From assembly GCA_013115145.1 (NCBI GenBank), contig JAAPAO010000251.1, positions 1-46,902 on the forward strand: a DNA stretch of 46,902 nucleotides, written 5' to 3'. Position 1 is the first letter of the stretch, and each line of letters opens with the position of its first letter. Made by a program: the position numbers and the translations under genes. This document shows, in pieces, positions 15,966-23,585 of this stretch. The DNA is from Perkinsus chesapeaki (lineage: Eukaryota > Perkinsozoa > Perkinsida > Perkinsidae). The notes beneath the pieces were generated by a model, which was given only the letters and a program-made list of their open reading frames with translations, made no database searches and was not told the origin of the DNA.

Positions 15966-18164
15966 ATGTGCGGTATCTTAGCAGTATTTGGGTTAAAGGA
16001 AGACGCTGAAGACTTCCGTCCTACGGGATTACAGTTAGCAAGGTAATTATATAATAATGTTAATATTGATATTATTATATTAGACGTATACGACATAGAG
16101 GGCCTGATTGGGGAGCATGTTATTGTCATGGTGATGTATTTATAGCACATGAAAGATTAGCAATAGTTGATGTTGAATCTGGTGCACAACCATTATATAA
16201 CGAGGATCATACTATTGTAAGATATATACTATTATATGAATTATATTATATATTAGGTACTTGCTGTTAATGGTGAGATATACAACCATGAACCTTTAAG
16301 AGCTGATCTATCAAGCCATGGTTTCCATTTTACTAGTCATAGTGATTGTGAAGTTATCCTACATATGTATATTGCCTATATAATCAATCATGTCTTACAG
16401 ATACCTTATTATTAGGTATGATAGAGGTGATGAACTAGATGACCTCCTCAATAAGTTACGTGGTATGTTTGCCTTTGTTATTTATGATGCTAAGAATAAC
16501 CGTTATGTAGCTGCTAGAGATCATGTAATAATAGCATCACCATAATAATATGTTGTAAATAGATTGGTATAATACCATTATATGTTGGTTGGGGTCCCGA
16601 TGGTACTGTATACTTTGCTAGTGAGATGAAGGCATTAAATGATCAATGTACATTCTTTAAACAATTCCCTCCAGGACATTACTATGACTCTTCTCGTCAA
16701 GGTATGTTATTATCTCCCCTATATCATAACTATGTCAGGTGCTAATAAATTTGTTAAATGGTATAATCCAGTATGGGCATTACCACCAATACCTTCCCAT
16801 AGACCATCTTTAGTAACCCTTAGAAGAGCTCTTGAAAGTGCTGTTGAATCCCATATGATGGCTGAAGTCCCTTACGGTGTCTTATTATCTGGTGGCCTAG
16901 ATTCAAGTCTAGTAGCTAGTATAGCTGCTAGATATAGGGCTAAGATGACAGTTGGTGAAGGTGTAAGGTCAGCATCTAGTGCCAGACGTGCTGGAACTCT
17001 ACCACCCTTTGCTAGATTAAGGTAAAGATATTATATACAAGCTCAAATATGGCTATACTCAGATCTTATTGTGTTGGTCTAGCTGGGTCACCTGATCTTA
17101 AAGCTGCTAAAGAGGTTGCTGAATTCCTTGGTACATTCCATCGTGAGTTTACCTTCACTTTACAGGTAATAATTCATTATACCTTATTATATATATTATG
17201 TTATAGGATGGTATTAATGCATTAGAGGATGTAATACATCATTTAGAGACCTTTGATGTTACTACTATAAGAGCATCTACACCAATGTATCTTATGACAC
17301 GTTTAATCAAAGCTACTGGTGATAATAATAAAACCAATACAAGCAACATACTATTTGATAGGTGTTAAAATGGTGTTATCTGGTGAAGGTGCTGATGAGG
17401 TATTTGGTGGTTATCTATATTTTCATAAGGCCCCAAACCCACAAGAGTTCCATGAAGAATGTATAAGGAAAATAGATAAACTTCATATGTATGACTGCTT
17501 AAGAGTAATGATACTATTATTATAAATTAATAAATGGTATATGTTATTAGGCTAATAAAGCAATGGCTGCATTTGGTGTTGAAGCACGTGTACCATTCCT
17601 AGACCGTAACTTTCTTGAAGTTGCTATGTCTATGGATCCTGAACTTAAGATGGTTGGACGTAATGGTAATACTATGGAAAAACATATATTAAGGTAATAA
17701 TACATGTAATGAAATCATGATAATATATATTTATAGGGCTGCTTTTGATGATCCGGATGATCCTTACCTTCCTCCAAATGTATTATGGCGACAAAAGGAA
17801 CAGTTCTCAGATGGTGTTGGTTATGGATGGATTGATAAATTACGTGATTATGCCGAAGAGAAGGTTACTGATGAAATGATGGAAACTGCCGAGTAATATT
17901 ATACATAATACTTTACTACTATATTATTGTTATTATTTTAGATTCCGTTATCCAGAGTCCCCTCCAAAGACCAAAGAAGCTTACCTTTATCGTCAAATAT
18001 TTGAAAAGTATTATCCAGAAGCAAGTGCAGTTAAAACAGTACCATATGGTCCATCTATAGCATGCTCTACAGAGGCTGCCATGAAATGGGATGCATCATT
18101 TATAGAAAATGATGATCCTAGTGGTAGAGCTATGATTAATGTACATGTTGATAGCTATAACTAG
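15966..18164 (+). CDS. ASNS: Asparagine synthetase (glutamine-hydrolysing)
   Basis: Makes asparagine from aspartate, glutamine and ATP. The start MCGILAVFG exposes Cys2, the glutaminase nucleophile, after Met removal. The glutaminase half shows RHRGPDW and [12 protein letters not shown]; the synthetase half shows the ATP-binding [33 protein letters not shown] and [13 protein letters not shown]. Twelve exons: 15966-16042, 16084-16216, 16257-16366, 16416-16524, 16563-16701, 16739-17021, 17063-17165, 17207-17318, 17362-17504, 17551-17693, 17737-17892 and 17942-18164. They sum to 1731 nt, exactly 577 codons including the stop (576 residues), the usual size for a eukaryotic enzyme. The 11 introns are 37-49 nt. 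An unusual Ala/Arg-rich insertion ([13 protein letters not shown]) follows the ATP loop. Confidence 0.97.
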
Positions 18165-20063: not shown

Positions 20064-21960
20064 ATGAGAACTAAACCGAAGGCACCTCGTTTTGGACAGC
20101 TTATTATTGGACCACCAGGGTCAGGTAAAAGTACATATTGTAGAGGTAATACTGTAGGGCTCTATTAGTTACTGTTGAGGTGCGTCAAAAGTTATTATAT
20201 AGCATGATTTAGTACGACGTACCATTACAGTGTCCTCGTTGGTTTGATAAAATAGAACAATAGTCATAAGCGAGCTGTGATGTATAGGGTATGGATGCAT
20301 TGAATGATGATATTGTTTAGCATTACGAGCATACCTACGAGCAGCTGGTAGACAATGCAGTGTAGTTAATCTAGATCCAGCTAGTGAGGAACCAATTAGT
20401 CCTAATATATTAAAGGAAGGGGATAATGATTATAGTAATGAGGATAATGAGGCTATATACTTTGATATTGATGTAATAATACACTAAGTAGTAGATCATA
20501 TGTAGTCTAAAGGTACGGGAGCTAATTAAAGTTGATGATGTAGCAGAGGAGCATCAATTAGGCCCTAATGGTGCCATGGTAATAGTAATAGGATGGGGAT
20601 GGGAGGCTTGCATAGTCTATTAATATACAGTTTTGGGTGTTTTTTGATAAATTGGCTAATTATAATTTTATATAGTGTTTATTATAGGTGTTTGCTATGC
20701 AAGATTTAGAGCTTAATTCAGCATGGTTAGTAGACCGTATAGAGGCACTTCCCATTGATGATTATATCTTATTCGATTGCCCTGGACAAATAGAATTGTA
20801 ATATATAATATGGTATATGCACTAGATGTATTATATTAGATATACTCATCTTACTGTTATGCCACATTTAGTACAATTATTAACAGACAGGAGAGGTCTT
20901 GATATGAGGTTAACAGCACTTAATTTAACTGATTGCTCTGTATTAGCATCTGAAGGAGGTAATATATCTTAGGTAAATATATAGTCTATATTATTATAGG
21001 TAATAACTTCATATCAGCAGCCTTATCATCACTGGCTATCATGTTACATGTAGAGCTACCTCATCTTAACGTAAGTCTATCAATTGGAAAATATTAAAGA
21101 TGGTATGTTGTTATTGTCGTTTTATAGGTCCTAACAAAATGTGATACATTAACACAGTTTGGAAACCAGTTAAAGTAATATATAGTTATAATATATAATA
21201 TCATCACGATGATGATGAATATTATTATTGTTAGTCGTACATTAGACCAATACCTATGTTGTGGTGGTTATAGTGGTATATCATCATTATTACCAACATA
21301 CTTGGAAAATGAGAAAAGAGGCTTAACTAGACCAAGGAGTCCATTAGTTGAAAGACAAGATAAACTAGTTGGTAGTATTATATCGCCTTCTATAGCTTAA
21401 ATAACATCTAACCGCTGCTGCTGCTGATTCAGCCTCCTTATGTGAACTAATAGACGATTATGGTGAAGTGTCATTCATACCACTTAGTGTTGATGATAAG
21501 GAATCCATGGGTAACTTATTAGCTCATGCAGATAAAGCTAATGGGTAATATAGTAATAATAAGTAGTTAATAATGTTATTATTATTATTGTTAGATATGC
21601 CTTCTCACATACTGATCCACAACTATGTGCTATAGAGATAGATGAAGGGCATGATGAATATAGTGATTATTATCAACAACGGTATGTTAATGGTAATTAC
21701 CTCAAGCAGGAAGAGGAAGAGGATGAGGATGAGGAAAGGGATGTTAGTAGTACATCACCACATACATGTGGATACTGTGGTAGTAGTGGTGCTTATATGA
21801 GATGTTCTAGATGTCAAAGGGCAGTGTAAGCAGTAATAGTAGTAGTAGTATTGTATATATTGGTATTATTAGGTATTGTGATCAGAGATGTCAAAGGCTA
21901 GATTGGAAAAGGCATAAGGCCGAAGACTGTATTAAGGAGAAGGAGGAGGAGGAGGATTAA
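20064..21960 (+). CDS. GPN2: GPN-loop GTPase (GPN2 type) fused to a C-terminal MYND zinc finger
   Basis: GPN GTPases help assemble and import RNA polymerase II. The first exon has the P-loop GPPGSGKST. Later exons have NLDPASEEP, VRELIKVDDVAEEHQLGPNG with the Gly-Pro-Asn motif, LFDCPGQIELYTHL (G3) and LTKCDTLTQFG (G4), then IDDYGEVSFIPLSVDDKES and DKANGYAF as in GPN2. The exon 21595-21825 continues without a break from the GTPase end through an acidic linker into CGYCGSSGAYMRCSRCQ; the last exon adds YCDQRCQRLDWKRHKAEDC. Ligand spacing C-x2-C-x8-C-x2-C-x5-C-x3-C-x7-H-x4-C fits MYND. The acidic EEEED end is at 21960. The first intron (20146-20320) is 175 nt, several times the local norm. GTPase part: sure; MYND: sure by spacing. 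Confidence 0.92.
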
Positions 21961-22202: not shown

Positions 22203-23585
22203 ATGGATAATAAATCAACATCATCATCATCTACAGAGTGTTCAATTAGTGATATGTTAGAAGCTATATTAGCAGCTGGAGCTAATCCTAATGCATGGTC
22301 AGATGAACCTAAAGGGAAAAGACGTAGTATAATGGGTATGGGTGGTGGTAGCAGTGATTTACCAATAATGATGATGCTGCTGTATAGTACTGTATAGTAT
22401 AATAAGGTACATTATTACAGTTAGCAATTGAGGAGGCTAATCCAATGTTGGATAATAGTAGTAGTGGACTAGACGATCTTAAAGCCGGTGGTAGACTACA
22501 TAATGTACAACTATTATTAGATGCTAAGGCTGATCCTAATAAAGTAATAGTTATAATGATAATAATAGTAATATACAGGTTAGGCATCTGAATCATCATC
22601 ATTAAATCATCATTTACCATTATTTACAGCATTAGAGGCTGGGGATGAAGTGCTTGTTAGAGCACTACTACTATCAAAAGCTGATCCTAATATAAAAGTA
22701 TGGTACGAAAATTGCCAGTAGTAGTATGATAATGATATTATTTAGAAAGAAGGGGAGGATGAGGAAACACCCCTTCATATAGCAGTACGGTATGGACTAG
22801 TAAAATCATGTGAGATGTTATTAAGAGCTGGAGCTAATGTTAATGTTGAGGATGACTATGGACGTACACCTATACATTATGGAGGGCCAGGACCTACTAC
22901 AGTAATACCGTTATACTAGGGATAATATATACATTGATAAGATATTAAACTCATTACTAAAATACGGTGGTGATATAATGCATGTCACTCCTAAAACATC
23001 AGAGACAGTATTACATACCTTTGCAGCTGATGAGGATACAATAACAGGTAGTAGTAGGACTAGTATTATATAGTAGTAGTAATAGGTTATTAGATACAAT
23101 AGACTGGATAATAGATAGGGCACCTGAACTATTGTTATCTCAACCTCCACCTAATAACTGTACTATATGATCATAGTAATTAATAGGTTATTATATAGTT
23201 ACACCTTTACATGTAGCTGCTAAAAAGGGTAATATGTCGACATGTATGCATTTATTTCAATATGGGGGAGCTGATCATATTAATAAACGTAATAGTAGAA
23301 GGAAGCTATACTGTATAATAGATATTATTATTATTAGGTGGTGGCCCTAACTTTAAACATACTGCTATAACTTTAGCTCATAAATATGGACATATTCATT
23401 TAGCGGAGGCATTATATTATAAGAAGACAATGATGGGTGCTTGTTATTATTATGATGGGCTGTTGCTCCTGCTGCTATTGGTAATTGTTGTTATTATGAT
23501 ATTAGGTACAGCTACATGGTCACAATGGTTACATAACCCTACCATTCAGATTACACTAATAATAGGATTACTTATGTTATGGTAG
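22203..23585 (+). CDS. Ankyrin-repeat protein with C-terminal membrane segments
   Basis: The ATG at 22203 begins a Ser-rich start, then LEAILAAGANPNAW, the first ankyrin-like unit. Others include NVQLLLDAKADPN, LFTALEAGDEVLVRALLLSKADPN, ETPLHIAVRYGLVKSCEMLLRAGANVN with DDYGRTPIHY, SETVLHTFAADE, and VTPLHVAAKKGNMSTCMHLFQYGG followed by ITLAHKYGHIHLAEAL. At the C-terminus, [11 protein letters not shown] and IQITLIIGLLML look like membrane helices, so the protein is probably tail-anchored or hairpin-anchored, with ankyrin repeats facing the cytosol (inference). The stop TAG is at 23583. Exons are joined by GT..AG introns mostly under 60 nt; some boundaries are uncertain. No enzymatic domain such as a DHHC motif was found. 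Function unknown. Confidence 0.75.

Follow-up and report, generated by a model that had tools for sequence, protein, structure and literature searches.

A predicted GPN2 GTPase with a C-terminal MYND zinc finger in Perkinsus chesapeaki

Introduction

The locus described here raises the question of whether a GPN-loop GTPase and a MYND zinc finger, which follow one another in frame on contig JAAPAO010000251.1 of the oyster parasite Perkinsus chesapeaki (assembly GCA_013115145.1), belong to one protein and, if so, what the finger might contribute to it. The window is the whole stretch of DNA that was analysed (46,902 nucleotides, forward strand), and all coordinates refer to it. GPN2 and MYND are each of known kinds; it is their combination that is new, and no earlier description of it was found in the literature searched. 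Yeast is reported to be inviable without GPN2 (PMC10746158), the full range of whose functions is said to be unclear (PMC11623451).

Structure of the gene

The GPN2-MYND gene is predicted on the forward strand at 20064-21960, where 11 exons give a single open spliced frame of 404 residues. The exons were joined at canonical splice sites, and all ten introns, of 40-175 nt, are bounded by GT and AG. Exons 1 to 4 (20064-20145, 20321-20472, 20513-20578 and 20688-20797), 5 to 8 (20840-20958, 21000-21070, 21128-21174 and 21235-21371) and 9 (21433-21544), spanning 20064-21544, encode the GTPase domain, with the P-loop GPPGSGKST, the GPN loop G95-P96-N97 and the motif DCPGQ; inserts make this domain longer. 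Exon 10 (21595-21825), which begins YAF and codes for residues 300-375 together with parts of codons 299 and 376, contains the GPN2 C-terminal tail (residues 300-331), an acidic linker (residues 332-355; these borders are our own) and the first half of the finger, with zinc ligands C357, C360, C369 and C372 in the spacing C-x2-C-x8-C-x2-C. A 47-nt GT-AG intron (21826-21872) lies within codon 376 and splits the finger, the second half of which (C378, C382, H390 and C395, spaced C-x3-C-x7-H-x4-C) is encoded in exon 11 (21873-21960), followed by an acidic end and an in-frame TAA stop codon at 21958-21960.

Pfam searches of the spliced protein recover both families: ATP_bind_1 with an E-value of 1.3e-55 (best stretch residues 75-299) and zf-MYND with 35.6 bits (residues 357-393). 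The finger thus has all eight ligands of the C4-C2HC pattern and a score above the family cut-off of 22.7. The ATP_bind_1 match ends at residue 299, which lies on the exon boundary preceding 21595-21825. The initial annotation had placed both the end of the GTPase fold and the first half of the MYND finger in this exon; the half-finger is indeed there, but what precedes it is the GPN2 tail and not the fold itself.

To assess how often the two half-signatures occur by chance, both strands of 100 copies of the window generated by a first-order Markov model were scanned. The first half-signature appeared on average 0.47 times per copy (maximum 4), compared with two occurrences in the window, and the second 0.02 times (maximum 1), compared with one. 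The additional first half-signature, near 18071 on the opposite strand, is unrelated to GPN2-MYND, the two halves of which lie on one strand, with starts 107 bases apart and a canonical intron between them.

Identity of the GTPase

The P-loop, GPN loop and DxPGQ motifs that characterise the GPN-loop GTPases are all present in the P. chesapeaki protein, and its named best matches outside Perkinsus are mostly labelled GPN2, with some hypothetical, rather than GPN1 or GPN3. Five GPN2s from animals, a plant, a fungus and an alga score 199-218 bits against residues 1-331, whereas a Bison record labelled GPN3 (P0090), lower in the match list, scores 174 bits. In P0090, as in the Entrophospora protein P0145, the C-terminal half is repeated, and by eye both seem to be faulty or duplicated gene models. 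The best match among solved structures is GPN3 (9t5j_C); the six matches listed include no GPN2 chain. The protein shares with GPN2/QQT1 the P-loop, the GPN loop, DCPGQ and the layout of a tail with an NGY motif, and differs in its lengthened GTPase domain and in the MYND finger that follows the tail.

A search of the P. chesapeaki assembly (35.4 Mb in 884 contigs) with the protein as query detected no GPN2 gene in this species other than the one at 20064-21960. Genes that we take to be GPN1-like (C697) and GPN3-like (C323), assigned through a reading of their motifs and weak tblastn matches, lie at separate sites, outside the 15 MYND places listed in the genome. The closest other MYND finger in the genome, at G000:C367:30489-30620 on the reverse strand, is 50% identical to query residues 352-397 and is possibly kin of the donor of the GPN2-MYND finger.

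The join and the deposited gene models

All three deposited Perkinsus models (P0001, P0002 and P0003) prove to be mergers with neighbouring genes, which raises the possibility that the MYND join is itself an artefact of assembly or gene prediction. The P. chesapeaki model P0001, 100% identical to the spliced query over 87% of that query, is a true merger, in which an asparagine synthetase (16855-18008) is fused to GPN2 and the P-loop exon is missing; in the DNA of the window, however, the frame of the synthetase continues to a stop codon of its own (18162-18164). The ∼2 kb skipped by P0001 between the synthetase and GPN2 seems, by eye, to hold a gene on the opposite strand.

The merger in P0001 is at the opposite end of the gene from the MYND join. 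Exon 10 is a single open frame flanked on both sides by GT-AG introns (21545-21594 and 21826-21872), and since the tail, the linker and half of the finger lie together in this one exon, the argument against a merger stands, as the initial annotation had maintained. The same join is found in the P. olseni protein P0003, as well as in 27 other proteins considered below. An assembly error, which had been named as a possible refutation, is unlikely given the P. olseni protein. We conclude that the mergers in the deposited models do not produce the MYND-GPN2 join; an artefactual origin is already largely refuted, and we regard it as extremely improbable.

The neighbour on the other side is an ankyrin-repeat gene on the forward strand, directly downstream, running from 22203 to about 23700 (located by eye against P. 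olseni; the end is approximate). In P. olseni both deposited models run into the counterpart of this gene: P0003 is merged with it after a finger that is intact except for the last Cys, which is a Trp at the point of merger, and P0002 skips the finger altogether and joins the linker straight to the ankyrin repeats. These two models would also fit a reading in which the functional transcript often ends or is spliced before the MYND codons, or continues into the ankyrin gene, with GPN2-MYND as a minor or neutral product. We find this very unlikely. In P. chesapeaki the in-frame stop at 21958 precedes the ankyrin ATG at 22203 by about 240 bases, and 27 predicted proteins of other origin share the architecture. 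Comparison of the two Perkinsus species also weighs against it: finger residues 356-394, with the last ligand left out, are identical at 33 of 39 positions between P. chesapeaki and P0003, compared with 6 of 24 in the linker. The finger thus appears to be kept by selection while the tether drifts, and it looks to be under constraint in Perkinsus. In the tail, 24 of 31 positions are identical to P0003 and 28 of 31 to P0002; P0002 also matches the GTPase core at 264 of 292 aligned residues and the linker at 8 of 23 aligned.

Occurrence in other proteins

A homology search gave 3158 matches, of which the best 120 include four that carry MYND (P0001, P0003, P0011 and P0017). When the last 142 residues of P0017 were used as query, 38 candidates yielded 25 proteins, P0017 included, with both families in all 25. 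In a search with a profile built from two sequences of the fused end, for which the Perkinsus records were too long, the best 120 of 923 matches include three that carry MYND (P0011, P0146 and P0132). The finger is thus found at the same end of GPN2 in 25 related proteins (the P0017 group) and in two singletons, P0011 and P0146. A complete eight-ligand signature is present in 28 of the 235 proteins fetched, P0003 lacking the last ligand, and Pfam reruns on P0011, P0146, P0017 and P0143 gave the same domain order. The fused proteins beyond Perkinsus are predicted proteins from jgi, lgn, ena and ncbi sources, which were compared at the protein level. Among the best 120 matches of the first search and of the profile search, none of the GPN2s named as coming from animals, plants, fungi or green algae shows MYND, and no named alveolate other than Perkinsus appears. 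We conclude from these sequence comparisons that MYND-GPN2 is a real, conserved architecture.

Its phylogenetic spread is therefore wider than Perkinsus, but one origin is neither shown nor rejected by two trees. The first tree, of 54 rows, requires four changes to account for the fused rows, at least two of them forced by starred branches, and the fused rows do not form one group in any bootstrap tree; the P0017 group (100/100, with 23 of the 25 members included) falls with Perkinsus in one supported set that also holds a long plain row, P0089. In the second tree, thinned to 43 rows, Perkinsus joins the P0017 group at 88/85, unstarred, and a test of whether all fused rows could form one clade does not reject it (p-AU 0.119). 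The union of Perkinsus with the P0017 group is doubtful because both have long branches. The trees may fit either one origin followed by losses or several independent gains.

Two further records were noted in these comparisons. P0089 is a plain GPN2 of 280 residues without MYND, on a long branch weakly placed with Perkinsus (91/60 in the 54-row tree); it may be either a fragment or a finger-less relative. The contig JAIYDP010000042.1 (L020), deposited as part of a Verrucomicrobiaceae MAG, encodes a split, eukaryote-like GPN2, a sign that the MAG may be contaminated with eukaryotic DNA.

The MYND finger

The eight zinc ligands, a Gln and a Trp are kept in all 28 complete fingers; the final spacing is H-x4-C in Perkinsus and H-x3-C in the other 27. 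Among fingers of solved structure, the closest in sequence are those of SMYD2, ZMYND10, DEAF-1 and CBFA2T1/ETO, none of which is a GTPase; SMYDs are described as having a SET domain and DEAF-1 a SAND domain. In SMYD2 and DEAF-1, as in P. chesapeaki, a Gln and a Trp accompany the C4-C2HC pattern.

The proline-peptide site of DEAF-1 is reported to comprise Met512, Glu514, Thr516, Gln529 and Trp533, and the Gln and Trp contact proline peptides in both the DEAF-1 and ETO MYND domains (PMC3555993). The P. chesapeaki finger keeps the Gln and Trp (Gln383 and Trp387), with Ser for Thr, Tyr for Met and Arg for Glu. Among the 28 complete fingers the Thr516 position is Ser or Thr in 27, and the Glu514 position is never Glu, being Arg in 16. 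Binding of proline-containing peptides, which the initial annotation had attributed to MYND fingers, is compatible with the sequence of the P. chesapeaki finger so far as the Gln and Trp are concerned; the Glu is replaced, however, and DEAF-1 itself is reported to bind such peptides weakly, with a KD of 3-5 mM (PMC3555993).

The placement of the finger bears on whether it works on GPN2 or on something else. It could be a folded C-terminal cap or regulator that docks on the GTPase, the dimer or the tail of GPN2 itself, with no outside partner. Consistent with this, the distance from the NGY motif to the finger is 35-37 residues in the five members of the P0017 group that were measured, and the AlphaFold model of P0017 (mean pLDDT 85.5, pTM 0.81), with a confidently predicted finger (blocks scoring 81-93), has two tail helices between the NGY motif and the finger. 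Elsewhere, however, the distance is long and variable, as for a flexible tether, at 56 residues in P. chesapeaki (P0001), 83 in P0003, 103 in P0011 and 123 in P0146, and the peptide-gripping Gln and Trp are conserved throughout. We therefore consider an internal cap unlikely. In P0003, NGA replaces NGY and the gene model has an extra stretch before the finger; in the AlphaFold model of P0001 the finger is again confidently predicted (blocks scoring 87-94), although the merged model as a whole is poor (mean 61.1).

A possible docking role

By analogy with other GPN2s, the GTPase part of GPN2-MYND would help to build the Rpb3 part of RNA polymerase II. The finger, of a kind that commonly binds partner proteins, would be a flexibly tethered docking module: by gripping a short peptide of a partner, it would concentrate that partner locally at GPN2 while assembly proceeds. 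As partners we would first expect a chaperone of the FKBP8/HSP90 type or an assembly factor, RPAP1 for example, held by a stretch that contains proline.

This tethered docking role is suggested by the known partners of yeast Gpn2, by the presence of an RPAP1 C-terminal domain in P. chesapeaki and by reports linking MYND domains with FKBP8 and HSP90. Yeast Gpn2 is reported to bind Rba50/RPAP1, Rpb12 and Rpb3 and to help assemble the Rpb3 part of the polymerase (PMC8136413, PMC11623451); the accounts of these three proteins given there do not describe them as MYND proteins. The P. chesapeaki genome encodes an RPAP1_C domain; a search of it for RPAP1_N gave no match, but the controls gave none either. 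PHD2 and ANKMY2 are reported to bind FKBP8 through their MYND domains, and ZMYND10 to lose the binding of both FKBP8 and HSP90 when mutated within its finger or immediately ahead of it (PMC6044906). In the model proposed for ZMYND10, ANKMY2 and PHD2, the MYND protein connects a chaperone with a factor specific to the client (PMC6044906), much as envisaged here, but the finger is the part that these proteins share with GPN2-MYND, for which FKBP8/HSP90 binding is putative. The ZMYND10-FKBP8 interface, moreover, is reported to extend past the finger (PMC6044906), so a lone finger may not bind FKBP8.

Taken as a whole, the proposal that the one GPN2 gene found in P. chesapeaki would serve in RNA polymerase II assembly and dock a candidate partner (FKBP8/HSP90-type or RPAP1) through its finger seems to us evenly balanced between right and wrong. 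A broader version holds that RNA polymerase assembly includes a MYND or MYND-docking step and that several eukaryotic lineages joined GPN2 to MYND for this reason. The finger would then couple GPN2 directly to an FKBP8/HSP90-type chaperone or RPAP1, and other eukaryotes would make an equivalent contact in trans; this version we think quite unlikely.

Besides exposing three deposited Perkinsus gene models as mergers, the conserved, putative docking finger that GPN2 carries here makes one question testable, namely what GPN2 holds through it. The partner of the finger would be a candidate for a missing GPN2 contact in other eukaryotes.
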